A DNA stretch of 22,352 nt from IMG/VR virus record IMGVR_UViG_3300010354_000741, positions 1-22,352 of that record; one strand, 5' to 3'. The position numbers and the translations under genes were made by a program. Numbering within the stretch: position 1 is the stretch's first letter; the number at the start of each line of letters is the position of its first letter. Under the pieces are notes generated by a model. The model ran no database searches and was not told where the DNA came from. It was given only the letters and a program-made list of their open reading frames with translations. Of this stretch, positions 1,906 through 17,755 are shown piece after piece. This DNA comes from a virus.

Positions 1906-4638
1906 ATGGCACAGGCAGGCTTTACCCCCATTCTTATTTACGCCAGCGGAACGGCTACGAATGTTCCCGCAGCGGGAGATCTGACAAGCGGCGCATCGGG
2001 TGCGGAGCTTGCGATCAATTACGCTGACGGAAAGCTCTACTACAAGGATAGCGGTGGCAATGTTCAGCTTATCGCTTCAAAATCCGGAGCCAGTGGCGAT
2101 GTTGTTGGTCCGGCAAGCGCCACCGACAACGCAATTGTGCGTTTTGATGGCACAACGGGCAAACTGGTTCAGAACTCTGTTGTTACGATTGCAGACTCAA
2201 CGGGTGATATTTCTGGGGTTGGCCAGCTTAATGCGACGACGGTCGATACCACCAACATCGAAGTCACCAACATCAAAGCCAAGGACGGAACCGCAGCGGC
2301 AAGCATCGCTGACTCCACAGGCATCATCACGGTATCAACCCAGTTGCAAGTGGATAACATCAACATATCTACCAACACCATTAGCAGCACAGACACTAAC
2401 GGCAACATCGTACTGGCCCCGAATGGCACGGGTGACGTTCAGCTTGATGCGGACACCGTTCGCATTGGAGACTCCAACGCCAACGCTACGCTCACGACCA
2501 ACGGCACAGGCGACCTGATCCTGAACACCAACGCCGGAACCAACTCAGGGTCTATTACGATTGCGGACGCTGCCAATGGTGATATTTCCCTTGCCCCCAA
2601 CGGCAATGGTTCCGTGGTCATTACGAATGCGGGTACGAGCAACGCACTACGCATCACGCAAACCGGATCGGGTAATGCAATTTTAGTTGAAGATAGTGCT
2701 AATCCTGACGCAACGCCTTTTGTAGTCAACGCGGATGGTTTCGTTGCTATTGGATCAACAACCGCACCAGAAAGATTAAATCTTGTTTCTGATGGAAGAA
2801 ATTTTTTTACTCTTACAAGAGCAAGCACAGACTTAAATCAATCTGTTATTGCGTTTAGAAAAGCAAGAGGAACAAATGCATCTCCAACAGTTGTTTCTTC
2901 AGGAGACTATGTTGGTGATTTTCAGTATTATGGATACGATGGGGCTAGCTATATCCAGCTAGCCGGAATCCTTTCCGGTGTAGATGGCACCCCCGGCACC
3001 AACGACATGCCTGGACGGTTGGTATTTAGTACCACCGCTGATGGTGCTTCATCTCCGACTGAGAGGATGCGGATTGATAGTGCTGGGCGAGTAGGGATTG
3101 GGCAGACCCCAAATGATTCAATGATTTTAGGACTTACCGGAACGCCAGCAGCAGCCTATAGTTATGCGGTACAGAATAATCCGACATTTCAAAGCACCAC
3201 AACTCAAGAAGGTGTTGGGTATCTTACAAGTCTAAAAACGGCGGCTGCTTCTTTTACTCTTGCTCTGATGCAACATTTCCGAGCAATTCAAAGCACTATT
3301 GGTGCTGGTTCAACTGTAACTAACCAATATGGGTTTTTTGCCGACTCCACCCTCACCGGCGCAACCAACAACTATGGTTTCTTCAGCAACATAGCCTCCG
3401 GCACAGGACGTTGGAACTTTTACGCTAACGGTACAGCAAGTAATTTCTTCGGTGGCAACACAATCATCAGCGTCGCTGATAACACCAACGCAGCTTTGAG
3501 GATTACTCAGACTGGTACAGGCGATGCAATCTTAGTTGAGGATAGTGCTAATCCTGATGCGACTCCGTTTGTTGTTGATGCAAATGGGCTTGTGGTTGTT
3601 GGGCATACTTCTGCTATTCCTGCATACGGATTCAACAATCAATTTGAAGTTTTAAGCACCTCAAATTCTTATCAGTTAAACGCTGCATTCAGAAATGACG
3701 CATTTGCTCCTTTACTGACAATAGCCCACTCTAGAAACGCTTCAATCGGATCTCATACTGTTCTTCAATCTGGGGATGAAACGGGGACACTTGCTTTTGC
3801 TGGATCAGATGGAACTGCGTTTATCCGAACTGCTCAGATTATTTCAGCCGTAGACGGCACCCCCGGCACTAATGACATGCCTGGGCGGTTAGTTTTCGGC
3901 ACCACTGCTGATGGCGCAAGCAGTCCGACAGAACGGATGAGGATTGATAGCTATGGAGCGGTAGGGGTTGGAACTTCTAGTCTTACTGGATGGAGCCTGC
4001 GGGTTGGTAAAAATATAACAGGTGGTACTTCTAGTTTTGGTGTTGGGTCTGATGGCAGCATCCAGTCTGGCGTTACATCTGCTGCCCGTATGTTCATTAG
4101 CCAACCTAGCACTGCTGCCGCATCATTTACTCTGCCTATTCTTGATCATTACTTGGCAGCACAAGGAACAATTGGTGCGGGTTCAACTGTAACTAATCAG
4201 TATGGCTTTAGTGTAACTAGCACCCTCACTGGCGCAACCAATAACTACGGCTTCTACAGTGACATCGCTTCTGGTACAGGGCGTTGGAACTTTTTTGCTA
4301 ACGGGACAGCGGAAAACTACCTTGGCGGCAATCTAAAGATTGGTGGTACTGCGGCCCGTGCGACAACGGCAGGAACCAATCAGCTTGTGCTTTTTGACGG
4401 TACCGCACCTGTTGGAACCCTGACTAATGGCGTATCGTTTTACTCAGCTTCGGGTGAAGCAAGGGTGATGGATTCAGCGGGCAACTCAACCCTACTATCC
4501 CCTCATGATGCCGAAACAAATGAATGGATTTATCATTCAGTCCACACCCCAACAGGTAAAAAACTGCGGATTGACATGGAAAAAATGATGCGGTTTTTGA
4601 ATGAGCATTTCGGCTTAGATTTCATTCACGAAGAGTAG
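1906..4638 (+). CDS. Putative tail-fibre protein with a tandem ~285-residue duplication
   Basis: This is a 910-residue Thr/Asn/Gly-rich fibre-like protein. The N-terminus contains an ELAINYADGKLYYKDSGGNV block (about residues 34-53), which I know from phage fibre proteins. The middle carries two copies of a long module, at residues about 244-518 and 527-809. Each copy has the same order of motifs: ALRITQTG..AILVEDSANPDATPFVV, then GTPGTNDMPGRLVF.TTADGASSPTERMRID, then TVTNQYGF...LTGATNNYGF..IASGTGRWNF.ANGTA. Stretches between the motifs differ sharply between copies. The C-terminus (HTPTGKKLRIDMEKMMRFLN...) is helical and charged and may be a trimerisation or capping end; no S74 peptidase chaperone is visible. 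The start is well set by AAGGA at 1895-1899, six bases before the ATG. Likely role: receptor-binding or long tail fibre. The exact receptor and attachment point cannot be read from the sequence. Confidence 0.75.
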   Translation: MAQAGFTPILIYASGTATNVPAAGDLTSGASGAELAINYADGKLYYKDSGGNVQLIASKSGASGDVVGPASATDNAIVRFDGTTGKLVQNSVVTIADSTGDISGVGQLNATTVDTTNIEVTNIKAKDGTAAASIADSTGIITVSTQLQVDNINISTNTISSTDTNGNIVLAPNGTGDVQLDADTVRIGDSNANATLTTNGTGDLILNTNAGTNSGSITIADAANGDISLAPNGNGSVVITNAGTSNALRITQTGSGNAILVEDSANPDATPFVVNADGFVAIGSTTAPERLNLVSDGRNFFTLTRASTDLNQSVIAFRKARGTNASPTVVSSGDYVGDFQYYGYDGASYIQLAGILSGVDGTPGTNDMPGRLVFSTTADGASSPTERMRIDSAGRVGIGQTPNDSMILGLTGTPAAAYSYAVQNNPTFQSTTTQEGVGYLTSLKTAAASFTLALMQHFRAIQSTIGAGSTVTNQYGFFADSTLTGATNNYGFFSNIASGTGRWNFYANGTASNFFGGNTIISVADNTNAALRITQTGTGDAILVEDSANPDATPFVVDANGLVVVGHTSAIPAYGFNNQFEVLSTSNSYQLNAAFRNDAFAPLLTIAHSRNASIGSHTVLQSGDETGTLAFAGSDGTAFIRTAQIISAVDGTPGTNDMPGRLVFGTTADGASSPTERMRIDSYGAVGVGTSSLTGWSLRVGKNITGGTSSFGVGSDGSIQSGVTSAARMFISQPSTAAASFTLPILDHYLAAQGTIGAGSTVTNQYGFSVTSTLTGATNNYGFYSDIASGTGRWNFFANGTAENYLGGNLKIGGTAARATTAGTNQLVLFDGTAPVGTLTNGVSFYSASGEARVMDSAGNSTLLSPHDAETNEWIYHSVHTPTGKKLRIDMEKMMRFLNEHFGLDFIHEE
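2635..3459 (+). repeat. Fibre module, copy 1 (in-gene tandem duplication)
   Basis: First copy of a duplicated coding module inside the fibre gene at 1906-4638. Its motif order matches copy 2 at 3484-4332. The offset between matching motifs grows from 849 bases (the ALRITQTG motif) to 870 (GTPGTNDMPG) and 873 (TVTNQYGF), so a few codons were gained or lost between them without breaking frame. Confidence 0.85.
2943..2964 (+). repeat. Inverted repeat at a fibre module boundary
   Basis: GGCTAGCT (2943-2950) and AGCTAGCC (2957-2964) form a perfect 8-base inverted repeat around the 6-base loop ATATCC. It lies inside the fibre gene just before the conserved GTPGTNDMPG block. The corresponding place in copy 2 lacks it. 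It may be chance; no T-run follows, so it is not an intrinsic terminator. Confidence 0.4.
3484..4332 (+). repeat. Fibre module, copy 2 (in-gene tandem duplication)
   Basis: Second copy of the module at 2635-3459. Conserved segments are close at both protein and DNA level, for example the stretch coding GTPGTNDMPGRLVF. The spacers (about 3595-3845 and 3960-4165) are unrelated or strongly diverged from those of copy 1. Confidence 0.85.
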
Positions 4639-4659
4639 TTTCAACTTTAGGAGCAACAT

Positions 4660-4848
4660 ATGCCTACGCTAAACGTAGAACTCACGCAAGACCAGTATGA
4701 TCGCTATAAGGCTGGATTCAAGAAGCTGCAAAAACTTGAAGACGACCCCACGGATGAGCAGCTTATCGCTCAACTTAAACGCGAAGCCTCGGCCATTACT
4801 TATGCGGCTGAGACAAACCCCAACGAAGACGCTGGTTGGAAATTCTAA
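4660..4848 (+). CDS. Small acidic hypothetical protein (62 aa)
   Basis: A 62-residue soluble protein with no membrane segment or signal peptide. The centre is a predicted helix (QDQYDRYKAGFKKLQKLEDD) followed by a DEQLIAQLKREA helix, and the end is WKF. The ATG is preceded by a good Shine-Dalgarno sequence, AGGAG at 4649-4653, with six bases of spacing, which supports it as a real gene. It sits between the fibre gene and the small protein at 4861, ahead of the lysis genes. I do not recognise a family. A small structural accessory or regulatory role is possible, but nothing in the sequence decides this. Confidence 0.72.
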   Translation: MPTLNVELTQDQYDRYKAGFKKLQKLEDDPTDEQLIAQLKREASAITYAAETNPNEDAGWKF

Positions 4849-4852
4849 GGAG
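4847..4852 (+). promoter_or_regulatory. Ribosome binding site fixing the start at 4861
   Basis: AAGGAG lies eight bases before the ATG at 4861. An in-frame TTG at 4855 would be only two bases from this site, so the ATG is the better start. The site overlaps the TAA stop of the upstream gene. Confidence 0.75.
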
Positions 4853-4860
4853 CCTTGAAC

Positions 4861-5049
4861 ATGCAACAAAAGCAACCCGTACAAACCACCCTGAGCCTGA
4901 CGCTTGATGAGGTCAACGCTGTATTGACTGCACTGGGCAAAGCCTTTTCATACATTGAAGCGGTGGGTTTGATTGAAAAGATCAAAGAGCAAGTCATCCC
5001 GCAGTTGCCCGTTCCCACACCGCAAAGCGAAACGGAAAAGGCTGAGTAA
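4861..5049 (+). CDS. Small conserved-type phage protein (62 aa)
   Basis: A 62-residue protein with an N-terminal strand-plus-helix signature (TLSLTLDEVNAVLTALGKA) and a second amphipathic helix (EAVGLIEKIKEQV), ending in a Pro-rich, acidic tail. I recall proteins of this L-T-L-D-E-V-N-x-V-L-x-A-L-G form from many phages; they have no assigned function. There is no membrane segment. The ATG at 4861 is preferred over the TTG at 4855 because of the AAGGAG site at 4847-4852. Only two bases separate its stop from the XhlA-like gene, so the two are probably co-translated. Its place directly before the lysis genes is suggestive but does not prove a role in lysis. Confidence 0.72.
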   Translation: MQQKQPVQTTLSLTLDEVNAVLTALGKAFSYIEAVGLIEKIKEQVIPQLPVPTPQSETEKAE

Positions 5050-10659: not shown

Positions 10660-10901
10660 CCGTGGCTCTGATTTATGACCCTCGTTATCACACGTTCGAT
10701 TCGTGGGCGTGTTTGATGTGTGAGCTTTACGCGGCTCAGCAACTTGAGAACCCCGCCACAAGCACTGATTGGAAATCTTGGGGGTCAGGTTTAAAGGCAA
10801 TTGACGTTTTTGCTAATGAAGCCATTCCAGAACCTTATCAATACGACGATTGGCAAGAGTGGGCCGAGGCGGTGATGGGTGCGATAAACGGGAGAACATA
10901 A
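10656..10901 (+). CDS. Small conserved-type phage protein (81 aa)
   Basis: An 81-residue acidic, Trp-rich protein (five Trp, two Cys). The pattern FDSWACLMCELYAAQQLENP...DWKSWGSGLKAIDVFANEAIPEPY...DDWQEWAEAVMGAING reads as a conserved helical domain that I associate with environmental tailed phages, usually beside virion genes. Its ATG overlaps the nozzle-like gene stop by four bases (ATGA), and its TAA shares one base with the ATG of the giant gene, so all three are likely translationally coupled. No membrane or signal sequence. Function unknown. Its fixed place between nozzle-like and internal-virion genes suggests a virion assembly factor or small structural part, which is inference only. 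Confidence 0.78.
   Translation: MTVALIYDPRYHTFDSWACLMCELYAAQQLENPATSTDWKSWGSGLKAIDVFANEAIPEPYQYDDWQEWAEAVMGAINGRT
10891..10894 (+). promoter_or_regulatory. Ribosome binding site fixing the start of the giant virion gene
   Basis: GGAG lies six bases before the ATG at 10901. The open frame extends upstream to 10850, but those 17 codons lie inside the 81-residue gene in another frame and look like a shadow. The ATG at 10901 is therefore the likely start. Confidence 0.75.
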
Positions 10902-13900
10902 TGGCCTACACCCCAGAACAATACGCCGCTGCAGCTCAGTTCATACTTGCAAACTTAAATAACCCCGATCTTATTGCAAGCACTGCGAGCAGTTTGGGTT
11001 TATCAGCAAATGATCTTCTTACCGCTGCTCAAACGGTTGCTCCTAATTTAACCCTTGAAGATGTATCAGGGTATTTTAAGCAAGCCAATACAGCTTATCA
11101 GCCCCCTGCCGTAACAGGCGGGCTGCCAGCAACAAATGCAGGCGCATTATCAAATGATTCTGCTTCTACGAGTGGCGCACTATCCAATCAAGTCACTTCT
11201 ACACCCTTAGGAGGTGACAAGGCAATCCCGACAGGGGCATTGCCAACTACAGACCTCACAACAAAAGCCGTCGATACTAAAGGGGCGCTATCTAATCAAA
11301 ACGTCGCTACAACAACTCAAACGGCCTCTGGCCCTACGGACAATTGGATGGCAGGGTCTGCTTTTGATCCTTCTCTGATTCCTGCTGATTTCAACTGGCA
11401 GGTATATACAAGACTCTATCCAGACTTGGTAGCTGCTGGCATAGACACTCCGGAAGAGGCTAAACGCCACTACGCAATCTACGGTGCTAATGAAAAGCGC
11501 CAATTTGCACAAGAAACACCCAATGTTGATGCCGTCAAACAGCTTTACAGGGATATTCTTGGTCGAGAGGCCGATCCTGGCGGACTTTCTCATTGGGCGT
11601 CAGCGTTTGGAAGTGAGGTTTCGCCAGAAGAACGGGCGGCTTTTCAAAATGCGGCAGCCGCTGAGTTAGCGCAGAGAACTGCACCTTTGTCTTCTGTTAC
11701 TTCTACGAGCACCCCTGCTCTTACTTCAACTGCTGGGGCGACGGTTGATCCTAGAGTTTTGGAAGTTAAAACTTATTGGGAGCAAACCACTGGTGATAAG
11801 ACATACGGTGGGCAAACAGATGAACAAATATTAAAGTACATCACGGAAAACCCAACTACTTATAAACAAACCGTTGGAGAAGCCGCAGCCAATCTAAACC
11901 GAAGCAACACAATACGTGATGCGTTTTTATCTATTTACGAACACCCTAAGAAAAGCTCTTATGAAAAAGCGCAAGAGATAAAAGCGCTTGCTGCTAGTTC
12001 AAAGGTAAGCCCAACTGAAATAGCAAATGTTTTAGGGTTTACTGGGCAAGATGGCGTAGCGCTTTTGAATACGTTTTTAAATCAGCCTGATCCAACAATG
12101 GCTGCTATTAAAACTTCTGTTGCAAATATATATTACAACAAAGATCTTACCGATCAACAAAAAGCGCAGCAGATCAATCAGTTTGCATCCACAAACAAAG
12201 TCAGCAGGGATCAAATAGCTACTGCTTTAGGTATTAGTTCAGCCAATCTCAACACGTATCTTGATCAAGATCCTACAGTTATTAGCAGTTTGTTGGCGAC
12301 AGCGAATGATTCTTCATATAAACCTGAAAACTATACATATGCAACCGATTCTGACGGTATGCAATATCGTGTTTTAAGTGAACAAGGTATTGCGGCACAG
12401 AGAGCAAGAGCAGATGCGGGCAGGCGGCTTGAAGCTCTTGGCTATGAATTGTTTGATCCTGACGGCCCTGCTTATACGGATGATTTTGGTACGGTGAATG
12501 AGAAACCAGCAGTGTGGCTATCACCACAAGAGGCAGCAAGAACAACCGGCACGAAAATAAATAATCAGTTAAGAAATCAGGCTTATGTTCAAAATACTGA
12601 TTATCTTGCGTCTCAACTCAGCCCTCTTGCAAATCAACTGCGTCAAAAGTTGGATGCTGTGAACGCTTCTGGAAATTTAGTAGCCAATCAGCCAGCAAGA
12701 TATTACAACGAAGTTGCTAATCGACTTACGCAACGAACAGGAATTACAGACTTAAATGATGTAGCCGTTAGAAAACTTGAAGGGCGTTGGATTGATGCCG
12801 GTGGAGACCCTCCTGTCTCATACTTCATACGTTCGGGCAGCAACCAAATAGAGTTGGATGACGAAGAGATTTACAGCAAAAAAACCGGACAAGTTTATGG
12901 ACAAGGAAGTTTTATAAATCTTGGCACTTTTGGAAATCAACAAGATGAAACAAGTGCATTGTTAAGCGTTGGGCCGGACGGAAAATTAAAATTAGATGCT
13001 GGTTACGCGCATGAAGGCGAAGAATGGCGAGACTGGATTGCGCCACTTTCGATCATCACGGCGCCGTTTACTGTCGGCTCAAGCCTAGCGGCGCTTGGTG
13101 GCGCAGAAGCCGCTTTATTGGCCGCTGAATCGGGAATTGCTGCTGGTGGCTTAGGTGTTGCTGGTGCAGGATATGGTGCTGGAGCTTTAGGTGCTGGATC
13201 ATTAGCATCAGCTATTACTTCACAACTACCAGCAGAACTTGTTGAGGCTGGCCGGACGCTTTACAACACGTTCAACACTGTTAAACCTTATATTCAGGGT
13301 GCTAATGCGTTTTATCAACTCTCGCAGGGAAACATTGCAAACGCGCTTTTAAGCGGGTTAGACGTAGCGGGTGGGGCTGGTATTGCTGGCGCAAAAGAAC
13401 TCGGTCAAGCGTTAAGTGTTGGAATGGCAGCGAAAAACGGGAACTATCTTCCTGCTTTGCAAGCCTTTCTAAATCAAACTGGAGTTGGAGGCGAACTTGC
13501 TAATACGAAGATCGCTGGCAACTTTACTATTGGCGACGCAATAAGCGGTGCGAAGTTTATTAACGCAGCGCGTTCTGGCGACACGACACAGATCCTAACC
13601 GAACTATCTTCGCTAACCAAGAGCCAAGATCTAAAAGTAGCGGCTGCGGCTAGTAGTTTTATCAAAACGCTTGAAAACCCAAATGCAACGGCATTTGACA
13701 TTGCCATGAGTGCAAATGGGGTTGCAAACGCGCTCAATACATCTGCATCAAAAGTCACTGGCGGGCAAGCCACAGTAACCGGCGGCACTGGAAACGACTC
13801 AGTCACTGGCGCTGCTGGAAATGATACGGTTACTGGCTCTGATGTAATAGACGAATACAACGTCACTGGCGATGGGGGAGCACTTAGCACCTTAACAGTA

Positions 13901-16900
13901 ACCGGCGGTACTGGAAACGACTCAGTTCGCGGAGGTCTTTCAAGCACTTCAGTAACTGGAGGTACTGGAAACGATTCAGTAGCCGGTGCACTTGGAACCT
14001 TAACAGCAAGTTCTAACCCAACTGAAGATGAGCAAATCAGTCTTGCGCAAACCAATCAAACGATTAACAGCCTGCTTAGAGACTTTTCAGCCACAGGCTC
14101 CACGATTGAGCCAACGGACCTTGCAGATAGTTTAAGACTACTTAAAGACCCTTCTGGAAAACCTATAGCCGAGTCGGAAGTTACAAGACTTGTCAACACA
14201 GCGGTCATGAATCGAACGGGCGTCGATATCATGAACCAGTATTCAAAGATTGATCCGGAATTTGGTACGCCTGGTATTGAGCGCAAAACTGCGATTGATC
14301 GCATGGTTGCGGCAGGGTTTTCTTCAGAGCGAGCCAATAACCTGCTTAATGATATTGATGCACAAAATGCAATCAAATTAGAAAACAAGCTCAATGTTCA
14401 ATCTGCATATAGTAATTTCATATCTGGCCAAGGCACTGAAAAGCAATTACGAAGCGCATTGACATCGGCTGATTACACCGACGCAGAAATCAATAATCTA
14501 ATCACGCGTGGCAATGCGGTCATTGAAGGTAAAAGACTTACTACTGGCGAACAGGCTCAAGAACGTGCATCACAATTGCCAGACATTCGAGCAGAGATCG
14601 CTGGCAAGTCTAATTTTAATGATGCTTATGCGCTAGCCCGAGAAAAACTTGGTCCAGGTGCTACATTTACCTGGCAAGGTAAAGACTACGTTGCATCATC
14701 TGCAACTGAGCGACCTGACTTGACGAGCACAACGACAACAACAACGACAGGGTCGTCAACAACCGCATCACAAGCGGACACATCACAGCAAAACACAACA
14801 CAAACTGCCCAATCGGGGCAAACTGTGCAGGTTGCTGGCCCCGGAGGAAGAACGTTTACGGTGAAACTTCCGCTTTCTCAGCAGCAAGTTGCTGATAAAA
14901 ACGCAAGCGGCATGCTTTATAACCTTGATGCGGTGTTAGATGAGATTGGAAATAATTTATCAACGCTTGCACAAGCAAATCATCAAGCCGCCGTAAGTTA
15001 TTTAAAAAACAACCCAAATAGTCCTTGGACGCAAAGCGTAAGCACAGCTTACGAAGCGGCGGGCACGACGATGCGCGACCTTGTGGGTGGTGGCGTGCTC
15101 GCTTTAGGTAATAAGCCTCTTGCGTTTGACATCATCAAAGGCGGTGAAGACCTTATTAAGCTAGGTCAGTCAATAGGAACCGGGCCGCAAGATTCGGCTA
15201 ATTGGGAAGAAACAACACGACTTGTGCAAGCCACAACGGATCCTTTTGCGAAAATCGGTATTGTTGCAGGGCGCATTTTGGATGGAAATAGCGGTTTAGG
15301 GCGTCAAGTAGAAGTTGAATTGCGTCAGGAACTTCCAGGAATTTTCCTTGGTGGTGGCACCGTAAAGGGTGCGCTCGTAGCGAGCGGGTTGTTTGACGTA
15401 GGCGAAACCGGAGGTAGCGCAACAATCGAAGGCTACCAACAAGCTATCAATGAAGGCAAACCCCATGAGCAGGCTTTGGCAGAAGGGCGCAGAAGGGGTT
15501 TGGCTGAAGGCGCAACAGAGCTTGTAGTTCAGGCTACGCTTGGAAAAATTACTGATGTTGCGCTCGGGCGCGTAACTTCTCTTGGAGGAAAAGCCGCTAC
15601 GCGAATTGGTTCAGAAACCGTTGAAGAGACGCTTCAAGAGGGTTTAGGGTCAGTTGCTGGCGACGTCGCAACCGGACGAGCGGTTGGCGCAAACTCAGCT
15701 TGGACCAAAGCGGTTTTAGGCGGCTACACAGGCAAAGGCACTGCGCTCACGACAGCGGGTGTATCAACGGCTCAAGATATTTCAGAAAGCTCACGCCCCC
15801 CACCCGGTTCAGACCCCGAAGCGGTTAGCCGTTCGCTCGGCACGATTCAAACGATTTATGGGGATTCAAAAGCTCAACAAGTCGTTAACACACTCACGTC
15901 ATCTTCTGACTTAGCGGCTTCCGGGCAGCAAATCGCAACTAGCCTTTCAAACGTACTGGGCGATGACGCCGCTTCGACAATATCAAACAACTTAGTGGCG
16001 AATTTTGGATTAAGCAGCGCTTCAAACACCTTGCAAGGTCAAGGCGTCACATTAAATAACTTATCAACCGTCGTGGGGAAAACCGACGCTGGCAACAACA
16101 TCACACTTGGTGATGCGCTGGGCGCTTCGATTACGGGCAATGGTCAGAAAGTTGCCGCCTCAACGGTAGTGGGTACAAAAGCCGACGGAACAAACCTCAC
16201 GTTAGGCGATTTAGCGACAACGATAAAAACATCAACAGGAGCAGCCACAAGCGGAGCCTCTACTGGCGCAGTCACGGGTGATCTTACAACTGGGGCTACG
16301 ACAGGCGCTACAACTGGGGCTACAACCGGCTCTACTACTGGAGCGACTACAGGCGCAATTACTGGAGCTACAGGAGCAACAGGAGCTACAGGAGCAACTA
16401 CGGGTGCTACAACCGGAGCAACTGCTGGAGCGACGACAGGTGCTACAACTGGCGCGGGTACGGGAGCCACAACTGGAGCAACAACCGGAGCCACCACTGG
16501 CGCAACCACGGGAGCAACTGCTGGAACAGCTACAGGTGCAACCACGGGAGCCACAACAGGAGCCACAACGGGATCAACTACGGGTGCGACAACGGGGGCA
16601 ACGACAGGGGCGACCACAGGAGTAACTACTGGAGCCACAACAGGAGCAACTACGGGTACAGCTACTGGAACAGCTACAGGTGCTTCAACTGGAACTGATA
16701 CCGCCGGGTCAGTTGTTACCGATGTAAAGTCTGATACTACAACCGGAGCCACGGTAATAACGTCAACTGACGTGTCAACAGGCACTGATACGAAAGTAAC
16801 AATCGGCGCAAATACCGGAATTGATACTTCGGTTGTTACGTCAACCGATGGGACAATTTCAACTGAAGTCAACACAAACACTGGTATTACAACTAACGTT

Positions 16901-17755
16901 GCAGTTGATACGAACACAAACCTAACTACAACAACAACGCTCGACACGAAGACGGGGGACGTTGTAATTACGGTTACGGATACGAAGACCGGCGACGTAA
17001 TTGATAAAGAAGTTACAGTCGTCACCGAACTTAGCCCTGAAGAAGTTGCGCTGCTTACGGTTACGGACCCCCGCACTAAAACTCAAACCCCTACCGTTCG
17101 GCCACAACAGCAACCAGCGGCGAGCTCAGGTTTGCTGCTCGGAACCGCCTTGGCCGCTGCGAACCCTGAAGACTGGCTAGGGGGTAAACTACTAAGCAGT
17201 AAAGAACGCGATAAGTTCTACGACCCCCTTGCCGAGTTAAAAGCCCTTCAACAAGACTCACAACAACAAACCCAGCCCGAGCCGGCTGGAGCCTTAGCGG
17301 AGCGTGCGATGCCCGTCAAACCTTACTACTCATACGGTGAAGAACCCTCGATTGATGAAATTCTTGGGTTGCCCGGTGAAGACTCTTCAAGTTATAATGA
17401 AGAGGAAGAAGACACCGTACCCGTATTCAAGTCCGGCGGAAGGGTTTCTCCGCTCAACATCCAGATGATGTACGCAAAAGGTGGGCACACACGTGAAGAC
17501 TTCCGTAGCGGAAAACATGTTGCGGGTCCCGGCGACGGCCAGTCAGATGATATACCGGCGTGGCTCGCGGATGGGGAGTTTGTGTTTCCGGCGGATGTTG
17601 TTAGCGCCCTGGGCAACGGATCAACTAAAGCCGGAACTGAAAAGCTCTACGACATGATGCACGAAATACGACGTCGCGCCCGCTCCAAACACCCCAAAGA
17701 CTTACCGCCCCCGGCGTTGAAGTCCCCGTTAGATTACGTCAAGAAGGGTAGGTAA
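10901..17755 (+). CDS. Giant mosaic virion protein (2284 aa), putative internal/ejection protein
   Basis: Modules in order. An N-terminal helical region has three GALSN motifs (to about residue 150). Residues about 164-203 (YTRLYPDLVAAGI...AKRHYAIYGANEKR) and 208-255 (LYRDILGREADPGGLSHW) form a DUF4214-type pair. Residues 338-461 are two helical repeats. About 710-860 is a Gly/Ala-rich hydrophobic stretch, possibly membrane-active. About 952-1032 are RTX-like GGTGNDSV repeats. About 1236-1275 is a FNDAYALAREKLG...FTWQGKDYVA motif. About 1350-1620 is a long amphipathic region. Residues 1796-1932 are a Thr-Thr-Gly-Ala tract, followed by Thr/Asp-rich strands. Finally, about 2175-2284 is a conserved phage virion C-terminus (KSGGRVSPL, GPGDGQSDDIPAWLADGEFV, then a basic tail). 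Size, position after the nozzle-like gene and Ala/Gln richness fit an internal protein ejected to guide DNA entry, but no catalytic motif is seen and a tail or fibre role is possible. Confidence 0.65.
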   Translation: MAYTPEQYAAAAQFILANLNNPDLIASTASSLGLSANDLLTAAQTVAPNLTLEDVSGYFKQANTAYQPPAVTGGLPATNAGALSNDSASTSGALSNQVTSTPLGGDKAIPTGALPTTDLTTKAVDTKGALSNQNVATTTQTASGPTDNWMAGSAFDPSLIPADFNWQVYTRLYPDLVAAGIDTPEEAKRHYAIYGANEKRQFAQETPNVDAVKQLYRDILGREADPGGLSHWASAFGSEVSPEERAAFQNAAAAELAQRTAPLSSVTSTSTPALTSTAGATVDPRVLEVKTYWEQTTGDKTYGGQTDEQILKYITENPTTYKQTVGEAAANLNRSNTIRDAFLSIYEHPKKSSYEKAQEIKALAASSKVSPTEIANVLGFTGQDGVALLNTFLNQPDPTMAAIKTSVANIYYNKDLTDQQKAQQINQFASTNKVSRDQIATALGISSANLNTYLDQDPTVISSLLATANDSSYKPENYTYATDSDGMQYRVLSEQGIAAQRARADAGRRLEALGYELFDPDGPAYTDDFGTVNEKPAVWLSPQEAARTTGTKINNQLRNQAYVQNTDYLASQLSPLANQLRQKLDAVNASGNLVANQPARYYNEVANRLTQRTGITDLNDVAVRKLEGRWIDAGGDPPVSYFIRSGSNQIELDDEEIYSKKTGQVYGQGSFINLGTFGNQQDETSALLSVGPDGKLKLDAGYAHEGEEWRDWIAPLSIITAPFTVGSSLAALGGAEAALLAAESGIAAGGLGVAGAGYGAGALGAGSLASAITSQLPAELVEAGRTLYNTFNTVKPYIQGANAFYQLSQGNIANALLSGLDVAGGAGIAGAKELGQALSVGMAAKNGNYLPALQAFLNQTGVGGELANTKIAGNFTIGDAISGAKFINAARSGDTTQILTELSSLTKSQDLKVAAAASSFIKTLENPNATAFDIAMSANGVANALNTSASKVTGGQATVTGGTGNDSVTGAAGNDTVTGSDVIDEYNVTGDGGALSTLTVTGGTGNDSVRGGLSSTSVTGGTGNDSVAGALGTLTASSNPTEDEQISLAQTNQTINSLLRDFSATGSTIEPTDLADSLRLLKDPSGKPIAESEVTRLVNTAVMNRTGVDIMNQYSKIDPEFGTPGIERKTAIDRMVAAGFSSERANNLLNDIDAQNAIKLENKLNVQSAYSNFISGQGTEKQLRSALTSADYTDAEINNLITRGNAVIEGKRLTTGEQAQERASQLPDIRAEIAGKSNFNDAYALAREKLGPGATFTWQGKDYVASSATERPDLTSTTTTTTTGSSTTASQADTSQQNTTQTAQSGQTVQVAGPGGRTFTVKLPLSQQQVADKNASGMLYNLDAVLDEIGNNLSTLAQANHQAAVSYLKNNPNSPWTQSVSTAYEAAGTTMRDLVGGGVLALGNKPLAFDIIKGGEDLIKLGQSIGTGPQDSANWEETTRLVQATTDPFAKIGIVAGRILDGNSGLGRQVEVELRQELPGIFLGGGTVKGALVASGLFDVGETGGSATIEGYQQAINEGKPHEQALAEGRRRGLAEGATELVVQATLGKITDVALGRVTSLGGKAATRIGSETVEETLQEGLGSVAGDVATGRAVGANSAWTKAVLGGYTGKGTALTTAGVSTAQDISESSRPPPGSDPEAVSRSLGTIQTIYGDSKAQQVVNTLTSSSDLAASGQQIATSLSNVLGDDAASTISNNLVANFGLSSASNTLQGQGVTLNNLSTVVGKTDAGNNITLGDALGASITGNGQKVAASTVVGTKADGTNLTLGDLATTIKTSTGAATSGASTGAVTGDLTTGATTGATTGATTGSTTGATTGAITGATGATGATGATTGATTGATAGATTGATTGAGTGATTGATTGATTGATTGATAGTATGATTGATTGATTGSTTGATTGATTGATTGVTTGATTGATTGTATGTATGASTGTDTAGSVVTDVKSDTTTGATVITSTDVSTGTDTKVTIGANTGIDTSVVTSTDGTISTEVNTNTGITTNVAVDTNTNLTTTTTLDTKTGDVVITVTDTKTGDVIDKEVTVVTELSPEEVALLTVTDPRTKTQTPTVRPQQQPAASSGLLLGTALAAANPEDWLGGKLLSSKERDKFYDPLAELKALQQDSQQQTQPEPAGALAERAMPVKPYYSYGEEPSIDEILGLPGEDSSSYNEEEEDTVPVFKSGGRVSPLNIQMMYAKGGHTREDFRSGKHVAGPGDGQSDDIPAWLADGEFVFPADVVSALGNGSTKAGTEKLYDMMHEIRRRARSKHPKDLPPPALKSPLDYVKKGR
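11912..12283 (+). repeat. Two ~60-residue helical repeats within the giant protein
   Basis: Residues 338-401 and 402-461 share the pattern IY...KAQ-I--A---KVS---IA--LG-----LN-(F/Y)L-Q-DP. The copies agree in motif order and length but are well diverged at DNA level, indicating an old duplication. A weaker relative may exist at the N-terminus of the protein (LNNPDLIASTASSLGLSAND). Confidence 0.65.
13754..13996 (+). repeat. RTX-like Gly/Asp repeats within the giant protein
   Basis: Residues about 952-1032 contain GGTGNDSVT directly followed by GAAGNDTVT, two adjacent nine-residue units of the GGxGxDxUx type, and two more VTGG-TGNDSV units spaced further apart. The DNA around each TGNDSV is nearly the same. 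Such repeats bind calcium in secreted bacterial proteins. Four units is few, so calcium binding is only a possibility. Confidence 0.7.
16286..16698 (+). repeat. 12-base / tetrapeptide (Thr-Thr-Gly-Ala) repeat tract in the giant gene
   Basis: About 35 tandem units encode TTGA, with variants TTGS, TAGA, TTGV, GTGA and ATGT. A short run drops to the three-residue unit TGA near 16367-16395. Third codon positions vary widely (ggagcaacaacc, ggcgcaaccacg), so the protein sequence is kept while the DNA has drifted. The tract spans residues about 1796-1932. It is not a CRISPR array: there are no spacers and the frame is coding. Confidence 0.92.

Follow-up and report, generated by a model that had tools for sequence, protein, structure and literature searches.

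Our analysis concerns a tail-fibre gene in a partial virus record of 22352 bases (IMG/VR record IMGVR_UViG_3300010354_000741), which we call the window. The gene, an open reading frame (ORF) of 910 aa at 1906..4638 on the + strand, carries two copies, c1 and c2, of one large module, and we consider it likely that both come from a pool of fibre modules that is shuffled by recombination anchored in conserved cores. In relatives of the gene we see a modular anatomy, crossovers biased towards the cores, and replacement of spacers from one core to the next. We infer that the same process built the window gene and that variation of the module may alter what the fibre touches.

In the model that we propose, the module would be built from three sub-domains that each hold a conserved core: X; Y, a shaft beta-helix with a variable part followed by its core; and Z, again variable and then core. 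Recombination between phages, and between copies within one gene, would cross mostly in the cores and in register, such that the reading frame survives and the product has either a different variable segment between two cores or a changed number of whole units. The window fibre would then have c1 in common with the lineage of two related loci, L002 and L008, and in the Z part of c2 it would go with a lineage close to a third, L009; the copies would already have diverged when they were set side by side.

Two module copies and their cores

By profile match the ORF belongs with two PHROG families, 18345 (E 2.2e-50) and 9942 (E 4.1e-45), both of them 'tail fiber protein'; a Pfam scan of the ORF gave no family at cut-off. 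Copy c1 covers residues ~244-526 (2635..3483) and c2 residues ~527-811 (3484..4338), both in the order X-Y-Z and, like every feature of the gene given below, on the + strand. Over their ~286 residues the copies share 54% of residues in a common order, with a local BLOSUM62 score of 722, where 200 shuffles gave a mean of 52 and a maximum of 89. Since the score lies so far above the best shuffle, the repeat is real and far beyond chance, and the two copies with ordered, conserved cores that an earlier note on this DNA had described are confirmed. The X core occupies residues 247-283 (2644..2754) in c1 and 530-566 (3493..3603) in c2, with a z of 19.6 in the alignment of the two; the Y core (Yc), residues 361-400 (2986..3105) and 651-690 (3856..3975), reaches z 22.7, and the Z core (Zc), residues 445-520 (3238..3465) and 736-811 (4111..4338), z 29.3. 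In profiles of the two copies, and then of 74 family modules, the X core always comes first, followed by the variable part and the core of Y and then by those of Z.

The segments between the cores had been described as unrelated, which we find to be untrue of Ym and to hold for Zv only in direct comparison, while for Yv we detect no relation between the copies. The Yv spacer (residues 284-318, 2755..2859, in c1; 567-608, 3604..3729, in c2) is not alignable in the direct comparison of the copies (z -0.5), and a family profile gives it 18 bits in c2, a moderate match, and a weak 4 bits in c1. For the Zv spacer (401-444, 3106..3237; 691-735, 3976..4110) the direct comparison is not significant (z 1.3, with 234 of 2000 shuffles as good), and the relation appears only through a family profile built without the window, which finds the segment in both copies (independent E-values 2e-6 and 2e-20, for a search space of one protein). 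Ym (319-360, 2860..2985; 609-650, 3730..3855), which had been counted as spacer, is clearly homologous between the copies in direct comparison (z 10.3). One spacer of three therefore aligns well between c1 and c2, a pattern that had been named as the mark of simple duplication plus drift, to which we return below.

The relatives comprised 127 loci (duplicates included) for the blastp searches and later 189 distinct ORFs. The cores are found throughout the family: taken one by one, the six core segments of the window match 91 to 114 of the 127 loci. The sub-domains X, Y and Z occur singly or repeated; on rough column limits, the architectures among the 189 ORFs are XYZ (41), Z-Z (13), Z (13), XY (9), YZ (6), XYZ-XYZ (5) and others. 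The Yv spacer of c1 finds by blastp only L002, L008 and L083 together with two duplicate loci, and that of c2 has no match at E <= 0.01 among the 127. The module is also carried, at 47% over residues 1-274, by a contig of Nitrosomonas sp. Nm166 (NZ_FONE01000054.1, L291), and an IMG/VR record of 15263 bases that also holds it (L062) is probably the same contig.

Crossovers in related fibre genes

Crossovers in the relatives are concentrated in the cores. We scored blocks of at least 150 nucleotides (nt) with at least 93% identity that stop inside both genes, over the 189 ORFs, and obtained 194 block ends, which merge to 96, of which 55 map to the module. Cores hold 44 of these 55, where 26.8 would be expected from the core share of residues (about half of the module); by region, the ends fall in X (10), the Y spacer (2), the Y core (17), the Z spacer (6) and the Z core (20). 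At higher stringency the core ends number 38 of 46 (95%), 29 of 32 (97%) and 19 of 21 (98.5%), and with the core cut-off set anywhere between 0.45 and 0.65 the excess persists (P 0.001 to 2e-7). If only one event is counted per connected set of genes, the median is 16 of 20 in cores (P 0.005), and at 97% identity or above 13 of 14 (P 0.0009). In a control where uniform change points were placed on match vectors of real module pairs, a true core fraction of 0.496 was recovered as 0.497, with a median error of one base, and hence the estimator is not biased. Moreover, 49 of the 50 ends that could be mapped on both sides share a profile column, i.e. the exchanges are in register. The proposal of the earlier note that the cores act as recombination anchors thus holds for the family, with 44 of 55 ends in about half of the module.

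Could the same map arise from selection on the products? In that case junctions would arise anywhere, only those in cores would give a trimer that folds, and shared DNA would play no part. The cores are indeed conserved by selection at the protein level, and their mean DNA identity between genes is only 0.55 (gaps counted against), both of which suit this account, whereas the register of 49 of 50 ends, together with a crossover inside a run of 28 identical nt in the pair L004/L041, fits exchange guided by homology. We take selection on junctions to be a serious possibility, though one that we lean against, and infer that shared core DNA guides the exchange, rather than selection merely removing the other junctions.

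Single pairs of relatives display the exchanges themselves. L196 and L204 agree at 100% over 628 nt on the left and at 99% over 591 nt on the right, and between these flanks 332 nt in one are replaced by 347 nt in the other (39% aa identity), with both junctions in cores, at X column 21 and Y column 133. Between L018 and L254, with flanks of 96.9% over 944 nt and 98.8% over 320 nt, 356 nt are replaced (62% aa identity) from the Y core (column 148) to the Z core (column 267). A weaker case is L031/L064, replaced from X column 28 to Y column 125, where the flanks are ~100 nt at 93-95%. In all we have 43 rows of such replacement pairs, many of them redundant and many with ends outside recognised modules; all preserve the frame, as open ORFs must. 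Whole units come and go as well: L004 and L041 differ by 897 nt, which is exactly one unit of 299 codons, and it is here that the crossover lies within the 28-nt run, identical in both Z cores. Swapping of spacers between cores, as had been proposed for the window gene, is thus observed in its relatives.

Since most of the loci are metagenome contigs, one may ask whether the pattern was made in assembly, by reads joined at conserved cores; short shared runs such as that of L004/L041 would allow short reads to be joined wrongly. However, cultured phages display the same features. From 44 phage records with a match we took 12 cyanophage loci, among which the isolates S-H34 and S-N03 share 1012 nt at 96.6% that end, in register, at column 149 (core), and S-TIM61 and S-TIM66 differ by the presence of an 825-nt unit between flanks of about 98%. 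Eight ends could be mapped in the isolates, from non-redundant pairs picked by hand and too few for statistics: five in cores, one core/spacer, and two in spacers (columns 168 and 289, near core edges). The fibre of L131, a locus from a different metagenome, has the 1244 aa found in L004 and a first module identical to that of L004. With 49 of 50 junctions in register besides, we consider an assembly artefact quite unlikely. Among the cultured phages, the fibre ORF of S-TIM5 (L284) is 99.95% identical to that of S-TIM61 (L283) but reads as two ORFs in place of one.

Variable spacers between conserved stretches of a fibre gene also call to mind a diversity-generating retroelement, which would rewrite the spacers. 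The window, however, holds no near-identical template (identities among the listed repeats of more than 90 nt in the fibre gene are 73-78%), and in relatives the spacers are of unequal length and are exchanged as blocks. No reverse transcriptase was matched by PHROG among 10 window proteins at E <= 0.01, a scan of a partial record in which a 2301-aa ORF and the small ORFs were left unscanned. As far as this partial record goes, a retroelement seems to us extremely improbable.

Relation of the two copies and setting of the gene

If modules are shuffled, the parts of one copy may have their nearest relatives in different phages. It had been suggested to compare the best matches of spacers with those of cores, and by similarity these do differ, in both copies. 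For Yv, Ym and Zv of c1 the nearest relatives are L002/L008 (identity 0.76, 0.69 and 0.50; for Zv a scan with the spacer itself found no relative, and blastp over the loci gave L002/L008 as best match at 50%), but L006 comes closest to the Z core of this copy (0.87, versus about 0.6; best match at 87-88%). In c2 the nearest relative is L009 for Zv (0.82; best match at 82-83%) and L110 for the Z core (0.80; best match at 80-81%), and the Y part of c2 is without a close relative in the comparison of protein modules.

The two copies are, moreover, not each other's nearest relatives. Ranked by identity over the family, the sister copy stands 25th of 118 for c1 and 35th of 118 for c2 (20th and 40th of 85 in an earlier module set), and 12% of 6989 module pairs between genes are as similar as c1 and c2, pairs with at least 90% identity left out. 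Family-wide, copies are mutually nearest in 1 of 19 pairs within an ORF (15 ORFs). Trees (LG+G4) were built from 40 rows, selected for their likeness to c1 or c2, and their bootstraps have not settled. In the Y tree c1 falls among four rows that form a set with support 98/99, L002, L008 and L083 being the nearest, and there the approximately unbiased (AU) test rejects a grouping of c1 with c2 (p-AU 0.009) and of c1 with L006 (1.5e-5). The Z tree groups c1 with L002/L008 (99/98).

Several results weigh against a history of core-anchored shuffling for c1 and c2. Within the window gene no junction is demonstrable, no relative being near enough, such that the anchoring in cores and the swapping of spacers stand for the family and not for this gene. 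In the crossover map, 11 of the 55 mapped ends lie outside cores, 41 of the 96 merged ends fall outside recognised modules and are unclassed, and with one event per set the 5th percentile is 14 of 20 (P 0.055). Many of the loci were found via core peptides, with some search patterns taken from spacers. The choice of the 40 rows by similarity could favour close neighbours, and a test of Y with all 119 rows gave p 0.507 for c1+c2, on a poorly searched tree that missed better ones. For the whole of Z the evidence is weaker than for Y, with c1+c2 only marginal (p-AU 0.060) and c1+L006 rejected (p 0.020), and for the Z core by itself neither c1+c2 (p 0.19) nor c1+L002+L008 (p 0.25) is rejected. Because the Z core trees reject neither grouping and the whole of Z rejects c1+L006, a mosaic within c1 is seen by similarity only.

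These Z results, in which a sister grouping survives, also bear on an older and simpler history, namely a tandem duplication in the gene long ago, followed by drift with the cores under purifying selection and the spacers free. Such a history would agree with non-synonymous rates (dN) far below synonymous rates (dS) in the cores and with a Ym that is still alignable between the copies. Against it, for either copy closer relatives than the sister are found in other phages, and the Y tree, which sets c1 beside L002, L008 and L083, speaks against c1+c2. An old duplication with drift is therefore already disfavoured for Y, and for the gene as a whole we think it rather unlikely; with the sister ranks and the Y test, the in-gene duplication assumed in the earlier note loses its footing.

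That note had also offered gene conversion, which, if recent, would keep the cores alike. In its favour the cores are far more alike than the spacers, and the sister's Z core is the third best match for either copy. The silent sites tell otherwise: codons differ at 88 of the 151 residues identical between c1 and c2, and dN/dS is 0.12/2.8 in the X core, 0.18/1.6 in the Y core and 0.18/1.4 in the Z core, dS being rough at such values. Since the silent sites of the cores are near saturation, recent conversion between the copies is unlikely; the longest identical DNA run is only 17 nt, and the core identities of 0.76, 0.88 and 0.75 lie within the range seen against modules of other phages. We hold conversion to be very improbable. 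Judged by these comparisons, c1 and c2 would be non-sisters, clearly for Y and less so for Z; they are probably not a recent local duplication, and they resemble pool members that had diverged before they were brought together, not a recent duplication that conversion has kept alike.

Inside the window gene, matches over 200 nt have about 66-78% DNA identity. Far above these stands a stretch of 103 nt in the Y core of c2 (3850-3952), 91% identical to L035. Just 3' of the stop codon, DNA identity to L009 is 92% over 373 nt, a stretch that includes two small ORFs (4660-4848 and 4861-5049). No DNA match to L009 was found over 4311-4648, the C-terminal part of the fibre, and none spans 4400-4600 in any of the 127 loci; residues 861-910 are likewise without a blastp match among them. 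Relative to L009, the end of the fibre gene looks exchanged. Window 4311-5021 was compared with L117 as well. The C-terminal part (residues 812-910, 4339..4638) is, from its position, the probable distal end of the fibre. The N-terminal part (residues 1-243, 1906..2634) has its best matches in L076 (residues 1-60 at 67%, 61-150 at 92%) and L010 (residues 151-243 at 89%).

Directly adjoining the fibre gene upstream is a gene at 211-1896 whose 561-aa product is of low complexity and fibre-like in look; L076 shares parts of it and the start of the fibre gene. Farther away, an ORF of 2301 aa (10850-17755) contains a 12-nt tandem array with Thr/Gly/Ala-rich repeats (about 16225-16719) and a separate repeat set reading TVTGGTGNDSVTG at 13773-13997.

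Likely role of the module and comparison with known systems

What part of the fibre might such modules form? AlphaFold2 models of c1 and c2, made as single chains only, have a mean predicted local distance difference test score (pLDDT) of 84 and 85, the five models of each ranging over 57-84 and 63-85, and the main strands of X and Y are the same in both copies. The Y sub-domain matches the Bdellovibrio MAT protein Bd1334 by profile (hmmsearch E 5.4e-13), and by its modelled fold with Foldseek (E 3.7e-9) and with VIA (to 8ol4, Z score 12.1, root-mean-square deviation 1.6 over 105 residues), with Z scores of 12-14 to Bd1334 and Bd2439 and of 10 to the L-shaped fibre of T5 (4uw7/4uw8); these structure alignments cover mainly model residues 56-168, X and Z being barely included. 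To the beta-helix of MAT and T5 fibres, Y is thus matched by both sequence and fold. In a single chain the Z sub-domain shows high pLDDT but is assigned no strands by DSSP, which might be explained if the strands form pairs across chains.

In Bd2439, residues 850-958 are described as a beta-helix stalk and 970-1107 as a TNF-like tip that binds N-acetylglucosamine (PMC10769870). The match of Y is confined to the stalk and leaves the tip unmatched; on this account the module is most likely a piece of fibre shaft, by the models. We had considered Y as a receptor-binding tip and dropped the idea, the matched part of Bd2439 being stalk. That the spacers touch the host directly would be a guess. More generally, one might imagine that the cores are kept as shared landing sites besides their role in folding, and that a single exchange pool extends across unrelated phages (uncultured phages, cyanophages and an element on the Nitrosomonas contig), with shaft stretches, and not the tips alone, routinely traded to change host contact. 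We regard so broad a scheme as doubtful.

The window fibre belongs to a known kind of fibre evolution, seen unusually clearly here. In T-even phages, a study of fibre exchange reportedly found conserved motifs used as crossover sites, with the variable segments between them exchanged; there it is said to be the adhesin that is exchanged, with a change in specificity. Our system resembles this in that crossovers are concentrated at conserved motifs, here in relatives of the window gene. It differs in that the modules are shaft-like and known from sequence, and the likeness is one of description. What was an observation in one gene becomes a measurable case, where many relatives allow the crossovers of a fibre family to be mapped nearly to the base: exchange takes place mostly at conserved cores, and whole units, as large as about 290 residues, appear or disappear without loss of frame.

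Gain and loss of fibre domains in frame has parallels as well. In T4, duplications of fibre domains are said to have been described by Tetart in 1996. For the Xanthomonas phages OP1, Xp10 and Xop411, domain duplications in the tail fibre with short direct repeats at the domain junctions are described (PMC2248197). Those units are small, with three domains packed into about 118 aa, and have been tied to host range, whereas the units here are of about 290 residues, known from sequences, and their copies are strongly diverged and non-sister. A general literature search on gain and loss of units by crossing over brought up, judged by abstract, nothing that bears on the matter. Tail fibres are among the classes richest in domain mosaicism in the survey of Smug et al. 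2023 (PMC10684548), which proceeds by profile comparison and, by a word search of its main text, does not use the words 'breakpoint', 'tandem' or 'duplication'. Fibre modules such as ours also fit the picture of host-recognition islands drawn for marine phages (PMC3909814). Our analysis suggests that the variation of phage fibres is not confined to the tip.

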